A stretch of 64,000 nucleotides of DNA, from assembly GCF_001007935.1 (NCBI RefSeq), contig NZ_CP011451.1:3782001-3846000 (forward strand), written 5' to 3'. Shown piece after piece: positions 10,268-25,215 of this stretch (position 1 is the stretch's first letter; each line of letters starts with the position of its first letter). This DNA is from Nitrosomonas communis. Lineage in GTDB: Bacteria > Pseudomonadota > Gammaproteobacteria > Burkholderiales > Nitrosomonadaceae. Under the pieces are notes generated by a model, which saw nothing but the letters and a program-made list of their open reading frames with translations, ran no database searches and had not been told where the DNA came from. Position numbers and translations under genes: made by a program.

Positions 10268-11154
10268 TAGCAGATCCCATATAAAATGATTTAAATTTCA
10301 TAAGCGGCCAAAGAGTTGCTCGATGGAACAACCTTCCTTTTTTCTGATGGCTTTGGCCTGAGCCCATTTGGGTTCAATGCCATTTAAGTCAGGGGAATAA
10401 GGCGGCAGGTATTCAAGTGTATGCCCGGCATTGGCAATGGCGGTTTGGATATCCTGCCGTTTATGAAAGGTTGCGTTGTCCATGACAATCACGCAAGCGG
10501 GCAGAAGTTTAGGCAAAAGGTCCTGTGTTATCCACGCATAGAAAATGTCAGCGCAGATATTGGCGATGAACAGACTTATGGTCAGCAGCGTCTTTCCGAT
10601 GAGAGCGCCAATCACATTGATTCGACCTCGTGCATGCCAGTCTTTTACGCCATGGACGCGCTCACCCACTGGCGCATAGCCATGCGTGCGTGGCATGTCG
10701 TGCGCAAAGCCGCTTTCATCAAGGTAGACGATAACGCGGCCTGCTCGCTCATAGTCTTCAATTTTTTGCTGGAAGATACGCCGCTCTTTTTCGCTGGCTT
10801 TGGGGTGACACAGGCTTTTTTTTTTATAAGTCACGCCCAGACGCTTTAAAGCATGGTTAATGCCTTGCTTGCTGACACCCAACCGTTTGGTGCGCTCGTA
10901 CTGATACGCGTCCGGATAATTCTTGATGTCCTGCGCCAACATTTCCATGTTGATCTTGGTGGCAGGTTTGTTGCGGGTGGTCTTGGGATCGGGAGTTTTG
11001 ATCCAACGCATCACGCTGGCGACCCCTACACCAAAACGCTTGGCCACTTGCGCCATTGAGAGGTTCTCCTTCTCACGAACGGATAATACTTTACGGCGAA
11101 ATAATATCGGATAGGTCATCTGTAAATTATAATCAATTTATAGGGGACATGCTA
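10268..11154 (-). mobile_element. IS630-type element (copy A)
   Basis: 887 bp with related ends TAGCAGATCCC and, inverted, TAGCATGTCCCC, flanked by TA on both sides (10266-10267 and 11155-11156), the IS630/Tc1 target. It lies between the IS110 fragment and a truncated terminase gene, which are not contiguous in an intact phage or IS, so it marks a rearrangement junction. Confidence 0.88.
10298..11119 (-). CDS. IS630-family transposase, single reading frame
   Basis: 273 residues: N-terminal helix-turn-helix (LSMAQVAKRFGVGVASVMRW), then a DDE domain with VIVYLDESGFAHD, VIVMDNATFHK and YLPPYSPDLNGIEPKW. It is the only copy in one frame, because the A tract near 10815-10824 (minus strand) has 10 As instead of 8. 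An extra base near 10315 changes the C-terminus from LFAAYEI to LFGRL. Confidence 0.85.
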   Translation of the reverse strand: MTYPILFRRKVLSVREKENLSMAQVAKRFGVGVASVMRWIKTPDPKTTRNKPATKINMEMLAQDIKNYPDAYQYERTKRLGVSKQGINHALKRLGVTYKKKSLCHPKASEKERRIFQQKIEDYERAGRVIVYLDESGFAHDMPRTHGYAPVGERVHGVKDWHARGRINVIGALIGKTLLTISLFIANICADIFYAWITQDLLPKLLPACVIVMDNATFHKRQDIQTAIANAGHTLEYLPPYSPDLNGIEPKWAQAKAIRKKEGCSIEQLFGRL

Positions 11155-16352: not shown

Positions 16353-17236
16353 TAGCATATCCCATATAAAATGATTTAAATTTCATAAGCGGCAAAGAGC
16401 TGCTCGATGGAACACCCTTCCCTTTTTCTGATGGCTTTGGCCTGAGCCCATTTGGATTCAATGTCATTTAAGTCAGGGGAATAAGGCGGCAGGTATTCAA
16501 GTGTATGCCCGGCATTGGCAATGGCGGTTTGGATATCCTGCCGTTTATGAAAGGTTGCGTTGTCCATGACAATCACGCAAGCGGGCAGAAGTTTAGGCAA
16601 AAGGTCCTGTGTTATCCACGCATAGAAAATGTCAGCGCAGATATTGGCGATGAACAGACTTATGGTCAGCAGCGTCTTTCCGATGAGAGCGCCAATCACA
16701 TTGATTCGACCTCGTGCATGCCAGTCTTTTACGCCATGGACGCGCTCACCCACTGGCGCATAGCCATGCGTGCGTGGCATGTCGTGCGCAAAGCCGCTTT
16801 CATCAAGGTAGACGATAACGCGGCCTGCTCGCTCATAGTCTTCAATTTTTTGCTGGAAGATACGCCGCTCTTCTTCGCTGGCTTTGGGGTGACACAGGCT
16901 TTTTTTTATAAGTCACGCCCAGACGCTTTAAAGCATGGTTAATGCCTTGCTTGCTGACACCCAACCGTTTGGTGCGCTCGTACTGATACGCGTCCGGATA
17001 ATTCTTGATGTCCTGCGCCAACATTTCCATGTTGATCTTGGTGGCAGGTTTGTTGCGGGTGGTCTTGGGATCGGGAGTTTTGATCCAACGCATCACGCTG
17101 GCGACCCCTACACCAAAACGCTTGGCCACTTGCGCCATTGAGAGGTTCTCCTTCTCACGAACGGATAATACTTTACGGCGAAATAATATCGGATAGGTCA
17201 TCTGTAAATTATAATCAATTTATAGGGGACATGCTA
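16353..17236 (-). mobile_element. IS630-type element (copy B)
   Basis: 884 bp inserted in the IS5 transposase at TA (16351-16352 and 17237-17238). One end reads TAGCATATCCC rather than TAGCAGATCCC as in the other copies. Confidence 0.88.
16376..17201 (-). CDS. IS630-family transposase, two frames (copy B)
   Basis: The first frame (17201 to 16842, 119 codons) carries the helix-turn-helix; the second (ending 16376) carries the DDE domain with VYLDESGFAHD and VIVMDNATFHK. They are joined across an A8 tract near 16905-16912; a one-base skip or transcript slippage to 7 or 10 As would give the full protein. Without that the product is truncated. Confidence 0.75.
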
Positions 17237-18758: not shown

Positions 18759-19642
18759 TAGCAGATCCCATATAAAATGATTTAAATTTCATAAGCGGCA
18801 AAGAGCTGCTCGATGGAACAACCTTCCTTTTTTCTGATGGCTTTGGCCTGAGCCCATTTGGGTTCAATGTCATTTAAGTCAGGGGAATAAGGCGGCAGGT
18901 ATTCAAGTGTATGCCCGGCATTGGCAATGGCGGTTTGGATATCCTGCCGTTTATGAAAGGTTGCGTTGTCCATGACAATCACGCAAGCGGGCAGAAGTTT
19001 AGGCAAAAGGTCCTGTGTCAGCCACGCATAGAAAATGTCAGCGCAGATATTGGCGATGAACAGACTTATGGTCAGCAGCGTCTTTCCGATGAGAGCGCCA
19101 ATCACATTGATTCGACCTCGTGCATGCCAGTCTTTTACGCCATGGACGCGCTCACCCACTGGCGCATAGCCATGCGTGCGTGGCATGTCGTGCGCAAAGC
19201 CGCTTTCATCAAGGTAGACGATAACGCGGCCTGCTCGCTCATAGTCTTCAATTTTTTGCTGGAAGATACGCCGCTCTTCTTCGCTGGCTTTGGGGTGACA
19301 CAGGCTTTTTTTTATAAGTCACGCCCAGACGCTTTAAAGCATGGTTAATGCCTTGCTTGCTGACACCCAACCGTTTGGCGCGCTCGTACTGATACGCGTC
19401 CGGATAATTCTTGATGTCCTGCGCCAACATTTCCATGTTGATCTTGGTGGCAGGTTTGTTGCGGGTGGTCTTGGGATCGGGAGTTTTGATCCAACGCATC
19501 ACGCTGGCGACCCCTACACCAAAACGCTTGGCCACTTGCGCCATTGAGAGGTTCTCCTTCTCACGAACGGATAATACTTTACGGCGAAATAATATCGGAT
19601 AGGTCATCTGTAAATTATAATCAATTTATAGGGGACATGCTA
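18759..19642 (-). mobile_element. IS630-type element (copy C)
   Basis: 884 bp with the same ends as the other copies, TA at 18757-18758 and 19643-19644. It joins the IS110 5' part to a truncated phage gene, so it is a rearrangement or deletion junction. Confidence 0.87.
18782..19607 (-). CDS. IS630-family transposase, two frames (copy C)
   Basis: Same split structure as copy B: a 119-codon helix-turn-helix frame (19607-19248) and a DDE frame ending at 18782, separated by an A8 tract near 19311-19318. Nearly identical in protein sequence, so a recent copy. Confidence 0.75.
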
Positions 19643-19644
19643 TA

Positions 19645-19811
19645 TCGCCAGTTATCCCACCGACAGCTACACCTTCAGTTGATGGTGCACCCAGTTCACG
19701 CTCCCCTTCCTGCAGGTACACCAGCTTCACCTCATCGCCAAACACATCCCGCACTTCATCAGCCAGCTTGCATGCCTCAGGGAACAATTGCCTTACCTGT
19801 TCTTTTTTCAT
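19645..19811 (-). pseudogene. Small phage protein truncated by IS630
   Basis: MKKEQVRQLFPEACKLADEV then a short beta segment KLVYLQEGERELG. ATG 19811 is chosen because AAGGTG precedes it. After about 55 residues the frame enters the IS. Family not recognised; its place after the primase suggests a replication-module protein. Confidence 0.5.
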
Positions 19812-19825
19812 AGATTCCACACCTT

Positions 19826-20072
19826 GCCTGAGGTATGGAACAGGTATGGAAGCTGGAAACGAGCGTCTGTGCTTGTTCTTCCTAACCTTCCATACCTTCC
19901 ATACCTTCCATACCGATATATGAATAAATATTTAAAGCATCCTATACGCGCGCGTGTGCGCGTGTGCGTGCGCGCGGTGAGGTGTGGAAGGTATGGAAGG
20001 TATGGAAGAAGCCCTATCCATGCGGCTTTTGAGGCTCCATACCCTTGCGCCAGGTGTGGAAGAGGTGTGGAA
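19826..20072. other. Candidate prophage replication origin (iterons, AT-rich and Z-DNA block)
   Basis: At least ten copies of a 9-mer GGTATGGAA or GGTGTGGAA lie here in both orientations: forward near 19831 and 19843, three inverted at 19886-19914, three forward near 19981-20007, one inverted near 20035, two forward near 20052-20071. Between the two arrays are an AT-rich stretch (19915-19937) and 34 bases of strictly alternating pyrimidine and purine (19943-19976). Position directly downstream of the primase-helicase gene suggests an origin recognised by that protein, as in P4-like replicons (inference). Confidence 0.6.
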
Positions 20073-20081
20073 CTTATGATG

Positions 20082-22457
20082 TCAAAATGCGATGCCATGA
20101 TCGCTACCTTTCTCTTCATCACCACGCCCGGTTCTTCGATCGTGTCCCATTTCTGTGGGGGACTTGTACCAAAACCTGGTTGTTGCGTGCGTCCGTTTCT
20201 CAATACGCTTACAGCCCAATTGCCGCAATGCGTTCCCTATCCTAGTCTGAATATCCCTACTCAACCGTGCTGCATCTATCTTCAAACACTCTATTGCGAC
20301 ATCTGCTACGCAGAATTCCTTATACTGCTCATACACCCAGCGCTCGATCATATCGACATAGCTGTCTGAGGTGCCTCGCTTGTATTGTTCTGGATTGAAT
20401 ATTTCCCGCTGCTCATTGCTATCCGGCCAGAAACGCTCGCCATTCAGATACACCTGATAGGCTTCCGCGAAGAGCTGATCGCGCGTGGCTGCCAGCCCAT
20501 CGGTATCGACATCGCCATCACATTCCACCGGCCAGAAGCGACGACCGCCAGTCGGGTCCTTGTTCCACTCCCACTCATTGGTAGTTCCCCCGAACACCAG
20601 CTGGCGCGGGCAACGTATTTCACGCGAACCATAAGCAGGCCGATATTCATCAACTTGACGGGAGAAAAATGATTTTTGCTTAGTCGCTTCCGCACGAGCC
20701 AGAGAGCCCAGTTCAGCAATCTCATAAAGCCATTTGCCACGTAGCGCAGACATGGAATCCTTGCTATGCAGATCAAGGTCAGTATCACCGTACCACTCCC
20801 CACCGAGCACGCGCAGCGCAGCCGATTTTTTACGCCCCTGCTCGCCTTCGAGCACTAGACAATAATCAAACTTGATCCCAGGCTGCATAGCACGGGCTAC
20901 CATGCCCACTAAAAACCAGCGTGACACGCGCCACACATAGTCGGTTTTCTTCGCACCCAGAAAATCTGAAATCCAGTCGTTGATGCGCTCCACCCCGTCC
21001 CATTTAAGCGAGCACAGATAATCCTGCACCGGATTAAACCCATGGAACTTGGCCAAGGCTTCAACCGCAAGCCCTACCAAATTCTCGCGTGGGGCAAAAC
21101 CATACTTGCGCGTGATCCACATGGCGGTTTGCACATCGTCATCATCCGTCCATTCGCCGACCTTGCCACCGGCATAAGGGGGCGGTTTAAGCTTCATGGT
21201 GCGGTAAGAAAATTCATCGTAGCCAAGCACGCCCTGCCATTGCTTGTCATGTTCAAGAATGTCATATACATTGGATAAACAACTGGCCGGCCGTTTGCCA
21301 TCCCATACCAGATCATGTGGCGTCCAGGGTGGAGCGCCATCATCACCACCTGATGAGGAAATGTTGTTTTGTCTGACAGGCGCCTGTTCTATCGGTCTTG
21401 TATTGAGGATAAACTGCTTCAACTCCTGCGCAGTCATGCCATCCTGAATGGCATCGGCAATATCCCAACCGTCCGGCTTCTCACCCGGCTTTGGAATATC
21501 GACAATATGGAAATTGCCAGGATTGCCGAGCAGCTTACGTATCTTGAGCATGGCTGACATGCCGGGTTGTTGCGATTCAGGAAGCAGATGATTGCCTGTT
21601 CTATCGCGTTGCGCGTCACAATCTGCCCAGGCATAAAGCATGCACCCTCGCAATGGCGTCCAATCGATCTTTCCAATTGCCTTGCTCCCGCCTGGCCATG
21701 CCATCACTACAAATTGATCTCTTAAATACTCATGCCCGGCATCAGCGCACTTCTCCCCCTCCACCAGCAACACCGGCTTATCAGGATGCTGTGCCAGCTC
21801 GTACAACCCATAAAGCGGTCTAGGTTCAGGAAATGCCATCCAGCGCCATTCACGTTTTTTGTTTTGCGTATGTTCAGCAAAACAACACGGCAATACTTCC
21901 TTGCCTCCGTCTGAGGTGATAAACCGGCAAATAATGCCCAGTAAATTCCCTTGCGCATCGAAATACTCATAGGTTGCCTGCGGACGACCGCGCACAGGAT
22001 GAGCCAATGGATACTGGCCAGCCTCATCCGGTACCGGCAAAACAGGACGCCATAACGTGCGCTTATTGGTTGCTTCCTGCTCAGGTGCAGGCTGTGCTGA
22101 TTGCTTAAGCGGTATAACATTGCTGCGCGGGCTAGGCTCTGATGCCGAATCATCTGTCATAATGCCCACCTGTGCTGCTACTTCCTTGGCGGCCTCAAGC
22201 TGGGATAATCCGTTAATGTAGGCATACAGGCTGATCAAATCCGCGCCGGATTCATTTGTGGAAAAATCTGACCACACACCCGACCGAAGATTGATCGAGA
22301 ACGATCCTTTGGAACGATCACCGCGGGTAGGATTGAGCGCCTTGTACTCACCGCCGGACACATCACCACCTGGTAACCATTGCGCTACCAGTATATGGGC
22401 ACGATTCAGCGCGGCTGAGGCGATTGCTTTGAAATCCAGCCTTTTCTTCGCGCTCAT
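20082..22457 (-). CDS. Phage primase-helicase (VirE-type C-terminal domain)
   Basis: 791 residues. The N-terminal ~100 residues resemble a CHC2-like primase domain (ALNPTRGDRSKGSFSINLRS, WSDFSTNESGADLISLYAY); a Toprim-like segment follows (KPVLLVEGEKCADAGHEYL, then CMLYAWADCDAQRD). The C-terminal half is a VirE/SF3-like ATPase with Walker A LVLEGEQGRKKSAALRVLGG, then WLYEIAELGSLARAEATKQK and FGGTTNEWEWNKDPTGGRRF. It would prime and unwind at the prophage origin. The start overlaps the antirepressor stop, so the two are cotranscribed. Confidence 0.9.
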   Translation of the reverse strand: MSAKKRLDFKAIASAALNRAHILVAQWLPGGDVSGGEYKALNPTRGDRSKGSFSINLRSGVWSDFSTNESGADLISLYAYINGLSQLEAAKEVAAQVGIMTDDSASEPSPRSNVIPLKQSAQPAPEQEATNKRTLWRPVLPVPDEAGQYPLAHPVRGRPQATYEYFDAQGNLLGIICRFITSDGGKEVLPCCFAEHTQNKKREWRWMAFPEPRPLYGLYELAQHPDKPVLLVEGEKCADAGHEYLRDQFVVMAWPGGSKAIGKIDWTPLRGCMLYAWADCDAQRDRTGNHLLPESQQPGMSAMLKIRKLLGNPGNFHIVDIPKPGEKPDGWDIADAIQDGMTAQELKQFILNTRPIEQAPVRQNNISSSGGDDGAPPWTPHDLVWDGKRPASCLSNVYDILEHDKQWQGVLGYDEFSYRTMKLKPPPYAGGKVGEWTDDDDVQTAMWITRKYGFAPRENLVGLAVEALAKFHGFNPVQDYLCSLKWDGVERINDWISDFLGAKKTDYVWRVSRWFLVGMVARAMQPGIKFDYCLVLEGEQGRKKSAALRVLGGEWYGDTDLDLHSKDSMSALRGKWLYEIAELGSLARAEATKQKSFFSRQVDEYRPAYGSREIRCPRQLVFGGTTNEWEWNKDPTGGRRFWPVECDGDVDTDGLAATRDQLFAEAYQVYLNGERFWPDSNEQREIFNPEQYKRGTSDSYVDMIERWVYEQYKEFCVADVAIECLKIDAARLSRDIQTRIGNALRQLGCKRIEKRTHATTRFWYKSPTEMGHDRRTGRGDEEKGSDHGIAF

Positions 22458-23370: not shown

Positions 23371-23415
23371 TGTACATACAAAAATGATCACACAAGGATG
23401 ATTGTTGTATGTACA
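23371..23415 (+). promoter_or_regulatory. brnTA operator palindrome
   Basis: TGTACATACAA (23371-23381) and TTGTATGTACA (23405-23415) form a perfect 11-bp inverted repeat just upstream of brnT. A BrnA-bound operator for autoregulation is likely by analogy with other brnTA pairs. Confidence 0.6.
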
Positions 23416-23424
23416 ATAATATTG

Positions 23425-23700
23425 ATGAAGATTACATTCGATCCTGCCAAAGATGCTGTCAATACCGCCAAGCATGGTGTTTCGATGGCGCTGGCAGATC
23501 AATTTGAATGGGATGCGGCAGTGATCTGGATAGATGATCGCAAAGATTACGGCGAGCCAAGAATGTGCGGGTTGGTGCCGTTGGATGAGCGGCTGTTTTT
23601 TGTGGCCTTCGTAGATCGCGCCGATGGGCGGCGCGTCATCAGTCTGCGCAAGGCCAATAACCGGGAGAAGAGACACTATGCAAAAGTATTTGACGACTAA
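23425..23700 (+). CDS. brnT: BrnT-family toxin
   Basis: 91 residues from ATG 23425: MKITFDPAKDAVNTAKHGVS, ADQFEWDAAVIWIDDRKDYG, then a strand-rich core ending VDRADGRRVISLRKANNREK. This is the BrnT pattern (RelE-like fold, ribonuclease in studied members). An ATG at 23398 in the same frame lies inside the operator and is disfavoured. Overlaps brnA by 23 bases, as usual for this toxin-first pair. Confidence 0.88.
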   Translation: MKITFDPAKDAVNTAKHGVSMALADQFEWDAAVIWIDDRKDYGEPRMCGLVPLDERLFFVAFVDRADGRRVISLRKANNREKRHYAKVFDD

Positions 23701-23968
23701 ATCAGGACGGAAAATCCTGCTCAATACACCAGAAGAAGACAAAGCCATCACCGAAGCCGCAATGTCCGATCCGGACGCTTTGCCGCTGACCGATGAAGAT
23801 TTCGCGAAATTGAAACGGGTGGGCCGCCCACGCGCAGCCACTACCAAAGAGCGCATCACCATCCGGTTATCACGTGATGTGGTGGAATCATTCCGCGCTA
23901 CTGGCAGTGGATGGCAAACCAAAATTGATGAAGTGCTCAAGGAATGGATACGTAAGCACCATGGTTGA
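23678..23968 (+). CDS. brnA: BrnA-family antitoxin
   Basis: 96 residues. The acidic linker (PEEDKAITEAAMSDPDALPL) should bind the toxin, and the C-terminal ribbon-helix-helix (TKERITIRLSRDVVESFRAT, then WQTKIDEVLKEWIRKH) should bind the operator. ATG 23678 follows a GGGAGAAG site inside brnT. Confidence 0.88.
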   Translation: MQKYLTTKSGRKILLNTPEEDKAITEAAMSDPDALPLTDEDFAKLKRVGRPRAATTKERITIRLSRDVVESFRATGSGWQTKIDEVLKEWIRKHHG

Positions 23969-24331: not shown

Positions 24332-25215
24332 TAGCATGTCCCCTATAAATTGATTATAATTTACAGATGACCTATCCGATATTATTTCGCCGTAAAGTAT
24401 TATCCGTTCGTGAGAAGGAGAACCTCTCAATGGCGCAAGTGGCCAAGCGTTTTGGTGTAGGGGTCGCCAGCGTGATGCGTTGGATCAAAACTCCCGATCC
24501 CAAGACCACCCGCAACAAACCTGCCACCAAGATCAACATGGAAATGTTGGCGCAGGACATCAAGAATTATCCGGACGCGTATCAGTACGAGCGCGCCAAA
24601 CGGTTGGGTGTCAGCAAGCAAGGCATTAACCATGCTTTAAAGCGTCTGGGCGTGACTTATAAAAAAAAGCCTGTGTCACCCCAAAGCCAGCGAAAAAGAG
24701 CGGCGTATCTTCCAGAAAAAAATTGAAGACTATGAGCGAGCAGGCCGCGTTATCGTCTACCTTGATGAAAGCGGCTTTGCGCACGACATGCCACGCACGC
24801 ATGGCTATGCGCCAGTGGGTGAGCGCGTCCATGGCGTAAAAAACTGGCATGCACGAGGTCGAACCAATGTGATTGGCGCTCTCATCGGAAAGACGCTGCT
24901 GACCATAAGTCTGTTCATCGCCAATATCACCGCTGACATTTTCTATGCGTGGCTGACGCAGGACCTTTTGCCTAAACTTCTGCCCGCTTGCGTGATTGTC
25001 ATGGACAACGCAACCTTTCATAAACGGCAGGATATCCAAACCGCCATTGCCAATGCCGGGCATACACTTGAATACCTGCCGCCTTATTCCCCTGACTTAA
25101 ATGACATTGAACCCAAATGGGCTCAGGCCAAAGCCATCAGAAAAAAGGAAGGTTGTTCCATCGAGCAGCTCTTTGCCGCTTATGAAATTTAAATCATTTT
25201 ATATGGGATCTGCTA
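24332..25215 (+). mobile_element. IS630-type element (copy D)
   Basis: 884 bp in the opposite direction to the other three copies, TA at 24330-24331 and 25216-25217. It interrupts a small P-loop gene. Confidence 0.88.
24367..25192 (+). CDS. IS630-family transposase, two frames (copy D)
   Basis: Helix-turn-helix frame 24367-24726 and DDE frame ending 25192, separated by an A8 tract at 24661-24668. Small differences from copies B and C (for example GVKNWHARGRTNVIG) show some divergence. Confidence 0.75.

Follow-up and report, generated by a model that had tools for sequence, protein, structure and literature searches.

A conserved mirrored repeat array with an alternating purine-pyrimidine core beside a VapE-type primase gene of Nitrosomonas communis: a probable prophage replication origin

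The array and its surroundings

The window analyzed here, a 64,000-nucleotide (64-kb) stretch of the Nitrosomonas communis genome, carries a block of short repeats directly downstream of a gene for a VapE-type primase-helicase. Neighboring genes encode a portal protein, an S49 peptidase, CII-like and Cro-like proteins, an S24 protein, and AntA, and the locus was therefore assigned to the early region of a prophage. Its features are as follows.

19626 to 19820, minus strand: next gene downstream of the primase gene, encoding a small protein and overlapping the outermost repeat; a transposase copy seems to have truncated it
19815 to 20072: whole origin-like array of 13 repeats (one with a single mismatch), AT-rich stretch, and alternating core; repeat count, conserved in relatives
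19815 to 19823, minus strand: outer repeat GGTGTGGAA of the primase-distal half; exact match
19832 to 19851, plus strand: two outer repeats GGTATGGAA (19832 to 19840 and 19843 to 19851) of the primase-distal half; exact match
19852 to 19878: 27-bp spacer of the distal half
19879 to 19887, minus strand: repeat GGTTAGGAA, with the other center type; sister copy L088 has mainly GGTTAGGAA
19888 to 19914, minus strand: distal inner triple, three GGTATGGAA with a 9-bp period; positions 0, 9, and 18 also in relatives
19915 to 19942: AT-rich stretch, 79% A+T
19943 to 19976: strictly alternating 34-nt core, with the highest predicted Z propensity in the window; alternation kept in relatives
19981 to 20007, plus strand: proximal inner triple, GGTGTGGAA followed by two GGTATGGAA
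20008 to 20034: 27-bp spacer of the proximal half
20035 to 20043, minus strand: reversed repeat with a single mismatch, 54 bp from the inner edge
20053 to 20072, plus strand: two outer repeats GGTGTGGAA (20053 to 20061 and 20064 to 20072)
20082 to 22457, minus strand: VapE-type primase-helicase gene, 791 amino acids, probable initiator (PF05272, E value of 1.9e-71); F762 codon at 20172 to 20174

The repeat GGTRTGGAA was found in 11 exact copies, every one within positions 19815 to 20072, against a mean of 0.76 and a maximum of 4 copies in 100 shuffles of the window, and a tandem pair of it occurs nowhere else in the 4.07-Mb genome. The remaining two repeats were one exact GGTTAGGAA and the single-mismatch copy. 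The first repeat lies at 19815, correcting the original prediction, which had the array start at 19826. That prediction had described two opposed repeat clusters around an AT-rich stretch and 34 nt of alternation; all these elements were confirmed, but the clusters are not purely opposed, as the inner triples face each other while each half also has outer copies reversed relative to them. The AT-rich stretch spans 28 bp, and strict purine-pyrimidine alternation extends over exactly 34 nt, compared with 14 nt for the second-longest run of the window and a maximum of 23 nt over 200 mononucleotide shuffles. Only 9 bp separate the end of the array from the stop codon of the primase-helicase gene. 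On its other side, the downstream frame, which is on the same strand as the primase gene, begins within the outermost repeat, and small proteins judged alike by eye follow several other arrays.

The nearest solved relative of the primase was SaPI PriRep1 (7pds), with an E value of 5.2e-90 by profile and 9.5e-30 by fold. In the AlphaFold model (mean pLDDT of 87.7), residues 699 to 765 form three helices and two strands, with residue 762 in the last strand. The C-terminal domain modeled alone (mean pLDDT of 76.0) matched winged helices with middling Z scores of up to 7.5, PriRep1 being among them at 6.4. It is a generic winged helix, and no Z-alpha domain was named among the 50 fold matches listed, which does not speak against such a fold.

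Several other elements were seen in the region. Transposase-like sequences occur in four almost identical copies (10298 to 11119, 16376 to 17201, 18782 to 19607, and 24367 to 25192), of which some have a broken frame and one seems to interrupt the gene that follows the array. A BrnT/BrnA toxin-antitoxin pair with overlapping frames (23398 to 23968) adjoins the AntA antirepressor gene. By eye, the 27-bp spacer separating inner triple from reversed repeat, in the window and at the corresponding position of related loci, often holds an AAAGCC/GGCTTT or AAACCC/GGGTTT inverted pair; a similar CTGAAAGCC stretch was visible in phage PS3, whose repeats are unrelated.

Conservation of the array and covariation with the primase

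Viral stretches with three tandem repeats numbered 39 for GGTRTGGAA and 33 for the second repeat type, GGTTRGGAA, and included 36 and 28 two-strand clusters of at least five repeats, respectively. A primase relative pointing at the cluster was present within 600 bp in 35/36 and 27/28 of them; the two clusters without one both lay close to where the retrieved sequence stopped. Alternation extended over at least 16 nt in 29/36 and 23/28 of the clusters, and over 12 to 15 nt in a further 5 and 4. When loci were collected by a primase search instead, 26 of 27 had downstream repeats, 25 of these with an alternating run of at least 13 nt; in the 27th (L018), the sequence ends at the gene. Species genomes yielded at least 119 stretches with three tandem GGTNNGGAA, 27 of which were two-strand clusters. 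A primase accompanied 20 of these clusters and an alternating run of at least 16 nt accompanied 18, and the seven further clusters, without a primase, had runs of 4 to 9 nt. The other 92 stretches were not two-strand clusters of at least five repeats, and neither a primase gene directed at the repeats nor 16 nt or more of continuous alternation was found in any of them. A BLAST comparison of the block with phage records gave only short, weak matches in unrelated genes, the best with an E value of 0.9.

The 128 loci were reduced to 83 by removing exact copies and to 80 by removing near-identical ones; geometry and core were examined in 76, the other 4 having no inner gap under the rule used. 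Repeats stood 0, 9, and 18 bp from the core region between the inner repeats in 76, 76, and 74 loci on the proximal side and in 76, 72, and 61 on the distal side. A reversed copy followed at 53 to 54 bp (74 proximal and 62 distal of the 76 loci), the outer copies lay mostly at 65 to 83 bp, and the core region measured 64 to 103 bp. With one mismatch allowed, the median count per half was six (exactly six in 48/73 and 51/73 loci; range, five to nine), counted in 73 loci because 3 stretches were too short, with about 0.4 chance matches expected per half by our own arithmetic. Related prophages keep the architecture of mirrored halves, fixed spacing, and a 64- to 103-bp core. The original prediction had named repeats unconserved beside related primases as one refuting outcome; the array, its geometry, and the position of the primase were instead conserved.

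Three other accounts of the repeats were rejected. Chance abundance was ruled out, the noncluster stretches (92 of at least 119) lacking a primase or a long alternating run. A coding tripeptide repeat with a 9-bp period was ruled out by the presence of both orientations, of 9- and 11-bp spacings, and of 64- to 103-bp cores. A general role for a G-quadruplex, with GG-TAT-GG-AA read as a two-tetrad motif, was dismissed, as the pattern is not kept in other repeat families beside like cores (L287 and L306).

Among the 80 nonredundant loci, the center of the repeat was mainly RT (AT or GT) or TR (TA or TG), and it was matched by the amino acid in the column of residue 762. Loci with RT (GGTRTGGAA) had Phe in 41 cases and His and Ser in one each, and loci with TR (GGTTRGGAA) had Tyr in 26 and Arg in 10. 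The agreement extended over 79/79 loci with no exception, and the 80th (L129), with a cut frame, also had Tyr beside TR repeats. Column 762 shared 0.99 bits with the repeat center, compared with 0.49 for the next best column. On a helicase-domain tree of 73 rows (a quick tree with SH-aLRT support only, 7 of the 80 loci being left out with too little protein), the repeat type changed 13 times. There were 12 independent Phe/Tyr pairs; the six on starred, well-supported branches were scored and all six agreed (P = 0.031). The Arg rows form one clade with a different motif and were counted once. Because residue 762 covaries with the repeat center in this way, the 9-bp repeats are very probably recognized by the primase through its C-terminal winged helix.

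A switch of repeat type is visible within the genome itself, which contains a second primase copy (L088 and L096; G000:C1:1155687-1158061), split in two frames that are 86 and 90% identical to the window primase. L088 has Tyr at the covarying position, mainly GGTTAGGAA repeats, and a core that also alternates over 34 nt but with other letters. The GGTTAGGAA copy at 19879, among the GGTRTGGAA repeats of the window, is possibly a relic of a specificity switch.

The wider family was sampled with a VapE-primase profile. Its best 80 loci comprised one already in the set and 79 new ones; one of these was dropped for want of a clear stop and 7 of 8 named phage or plasmid records were added (Mica, L101, being absent), giving 85 loci. 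At least five copies in both orientations were found within 1,100 bp downstream in 53/85. An automatic consensus check classed 43/53 arrays as other than GGTNNGGA, and 26/43 had an alternating run of at least 14 nt exceeding background; the check is crude, as L263, L273, and L274 are close variants of the same repeat (23/40 without them), and near copies such as L313 to L318 and L334 were kept among the 43. Unlike repeats with an alternating core occurred at L275, L287, L295, L298, L306, and L321 and in Pseudomonas phage Haddon (16 nt) and Marinobacter phage PS3 (14 nt). Such a core was absent from 17/43 arrays with other repeats, for example, those of plasmid pKNA06 and Staphylococcus phage 2638A, so that VapE origins taken as a whole do not require one. 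As judged from these arrays, the alternating core is common, but not universal, among VapE origins. The automatic search found no array beside the VapE genes of VarioGold, a Comamonas plasmid, and pGO128.

By eye, short GTGCT/AGCAC repeats were visible in pGO128. A third primase-like gene of the N. communis genome (L340, G000:C1:1453500-1461500) is of another type, which we take to be DUF927-like. Downstream of it there was no comparable array and no alternating GC-rich core; a short TTGACGC-type repeat pair flanking an AT-rich stretch was noticed by eye.

The alternating core

The longest alternating run between the inner repeats had a median of 25.5 nt over the 76 loci. For comparison, 6,319 windows of equal length from these loci gave a median of 6, a 99.9th percentile of 15, and a maximum of 20 nt. 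The core run exceeded every window of its own locus in 73/76 cases (the misses being L205, L230, and L254), and the fraction of alternating steps did so in 63/76. The unusual core pointed out in the original prediction is therefore also conserved in relatives. The runs had a median G+C content of 0.68 against 0.62 for the loci, and 0.74 against 0.51 in the window.

Substitutions were compared in 10 independent close pairs (primase identity of at least 0.88 and at most 8 gap columns). Transitions were about as frequent in the core (0.088 per site) as at four-fold sites of the primase gene (0.091), whereas transversions were approximately five-fold rarer (0.024 against 0.128). Elsewhere in the gap, there were 0.030 transitions and 0.053 transversions per site. 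The transition:transversion ratio of the core differed from that of the four-fold sites (Fisher P = 1.3e-6) and from that of the rest of the gap (P = 1.8e-4), with a core mask, alternation in either sequence, that favors transitions somewhat. In 26 pairs including distant cores, 161 transitions and 77 transversions were counted in the core, against 390 and 797 at four-fold sites. Little neighbor preference was seen beyond alternation and composition, and there was no hairpin signal. Within each base class, the letters of the core turn over almost unhindered, while changes between classes are eliminated. What selection preserves therefore seems to be the shape of the DNA: comparison of the sequences argues strongly that purine-pyrimidine alternation, not an exact sequence, is under selection in the core.

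At its proximal inner edge, the gap starts with a short T/C tract; at the distal edge, about 18 bp are AT-rich. Among the core differences between near relatives at L174 and L251 are two neighboring transitions (CA to TG) that leave the alternation intact. The primase-sense strand of the 76 cores was asymmetric, with 417 CA against 245 TG and 430 AC against 300 GT.

Z-DNA propensity was calculated with the B-Z energies given in Table 1 of PMC3024258 and a simplified single-site model of our own for a 4-kb circle. The window core was predicted to flip at a sigma of -0.0369, followed by the next site at -0.0450. It is thus the easiest predicted B-Z site of the 64 kb, at an ordinary superhelix density, in line with the original prediction of a strong Z-DNA former. 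The gap held the easiest site in 68/76 loci (median of -0.0395, against -0.0447 elsewhere in the locus) and did not have that rank in 8/76. TA steps, which are poor Z-DNA formers, were not avoided in the cores (178 against 158 expected), and AT steps numbered 127 against 153 expected. By this model, the core is predicted to be probably Z-forming and responsive to torsion.

Interpretation and comparison with known systems

Taken together, the data make a strong case that the block is a prophage replication origin of the VapE/SaPI type, with the adjacent VapE-type primase-helicase as initiator. The C-terminal winged helix would bind the 9-bp repeats, as the covariation of one residue suggests. 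About six mirrored repeats would make up each half-origin, one per subunit of a hexamer, and it is therefore probable that two hexamers load in opposed orientation on the duplex. Supercoiling, or the action of the two motors, could then provide the torsion that flips the core to left-handed Z-DNA; opening at the B-Z junctions and in the AT-rich flank beside them would supply single strands. The combination of a VapE-type origin, a primase reading the repeats, two hexamers, and a torsion-responsive core selected for alternation is, in our judgment, likely to be right. Given that the block is an origin, the chances are about even that a torsion-driven Z flip is followed by opening at the junctions and the AT-rich flank. 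More tentatively, and with the odds somewhat against it, the locus may represent a widespread class of proteobacterial phage origins in which a Z-DNA switch is the unwinding element, two hexamers undertwist the core, and one aromatic residue (Phe or Tyr) sets the repeat that is read, so that a single substitution could switch origin specificity.

The same origin might instead have a core selected for flexible pyrimidine-purine steps, one at every second position, that let the DNA bend, wrap, or untwist on the initiator, with Z-DNA never forming. This stays a serious rival because the cores show no shortage of TA steps, and a few AT-richer cores (L007 and L024) alternate yet are poor Z-formers. 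We nevertheless consider it unlikely, since the cores are GC-richer than their loci, 68/76 are the easiest B-Z site of the locus, and TA-rich DNA would serve flexibility or melting alone better. A cruciform or hairpin element with incidental alternation is scarcely credible: alternating DNA is often self-complementary, but the longest stems averaged 5.6, against 5.4 after shuffling within purine and pyrimidine positions, and just 2/69 cores beat their own shuffles at 0.05.

Selection itself would be unnecessary if alternation were a mutational by-product at the origin, of dinucleotide slippage or untemplated synthesis. Slippage does yield alternating DNA, and indels touching the core were even in length in 138 cases against 44 odd (pairwise alignments with overlapping pairs). 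Against this, close-pair core changes are no faster than at four-fold sites and transversions are suppressed five-fold, while the cores are of mixed sequence and alternate at the same place in distant loci, making a by-product very unlikely. Marginally less improbable is an operator, partition, or termination site that the primase binds for regulation while replication starts elsewhere. The covariation shows that primase and repeats have coevolved and nothing more, and the next gene begins inside the block; the position, the two-half symmetry, and the six repeats per half nonetheless fit an initiator site, and related VapE/SaPI initiators have origins in this place, according to the relevant part of PMC7581432.

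Returning to an origin read by its primase, the Phe/Tyr switch with its covarying repeats offers a code of specificity in an initiator family that is large and little studied, and also a way to locate VapE phage origins from sequence. Establishing what Z-DNA naturally does in bacteria has long proved difficult. Here, a defined site in many prophages keeps its alternation while its letters turn over, making a Z-DNA or flexibility function testable on a plasmid. A VapE/SaPI-type initiator with a downstream origin is already known; the alternating core and the Phe/Tyr code look new, being undescribed as far as searched. Among the papers that full-text searches listed on origins, iterons, prophages, primases, VapE, or SaPI, none concerned such a core, judged by title and abstract; most subscription journals fall outside the scope of these searches, and older work could exist.

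In P4-type origins, the repeats are bound by the primase-helicase, and the P4 alpha-type initiator has separate ori and crr sites. The original prediction had pictured a P4-like origin of this kind. An iteron origin read by the adjacent primase is indeed very probable, but the nearest solved relative is SaPI PriRep1 and the position 3' of the gene is SaPI-like. The arrays beside the VapE genes of Haddon, PS3, pKNA06, and Staphylococcus phage 2638A are alike in having two orientations 3' of the gene, and differ in their repeat sequences and in the core, which alternates over 16 nt (Haddon) or 14 nt (PS3) and is missing from pKNA06 and 2638A. For SCCmec Cch2, the C-terminal domain of the helicase binds direct repeats downstream of its gene, a putative origin with three 5-nt iterons (PMC7581432, in part). 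The arrangement of helicase and repeats is alike, whereas Cch2 belongs to a different helicase family and no alternating core is mentioned for it in the portion of PMC7581432 used here. SV40 T-antigen recognizes its origin via its N-terminal domain (same portion of PMC7581432). As two inward-directed hexamers on duplex DNA, it melts 150 bp, for which a model of shear or torsion between the hexamers is given (PMC9894130, in part). The origin sequence is unrelated, but two opposed hexamers would be shared with our proposal, and this melting contributes to a plausible path to undertwisting of the core.

The closest likeness is to SaPI Rep. Its C-terminal domain acts on iterons directly downstream of the gene, its origins sit just 3' of the initiator gene (citing Ubeda et al. 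2007), and binding as two hexamers has been suggested (all from the same portion of PMC7581432). Shared with Rep/PriRep1 are a homologous helicase, an origin directly 3' of the gene, two sets of short repeats flanking a core, and a C-terminal DNA-binding domain, here predicted from covariation. The portal, repressor, and CII-like genes of the present locus point to a prophage, not a satellite island, and its 9-bp repeats are contiguous and in strict mirror geometry. SaPI origins have an AT-rich core between the repeat sets, whereas the core between the half-sites described here is alternating and mostly GC-rich (median G+C of 0.68), within a gap that is AT-rich in part only.
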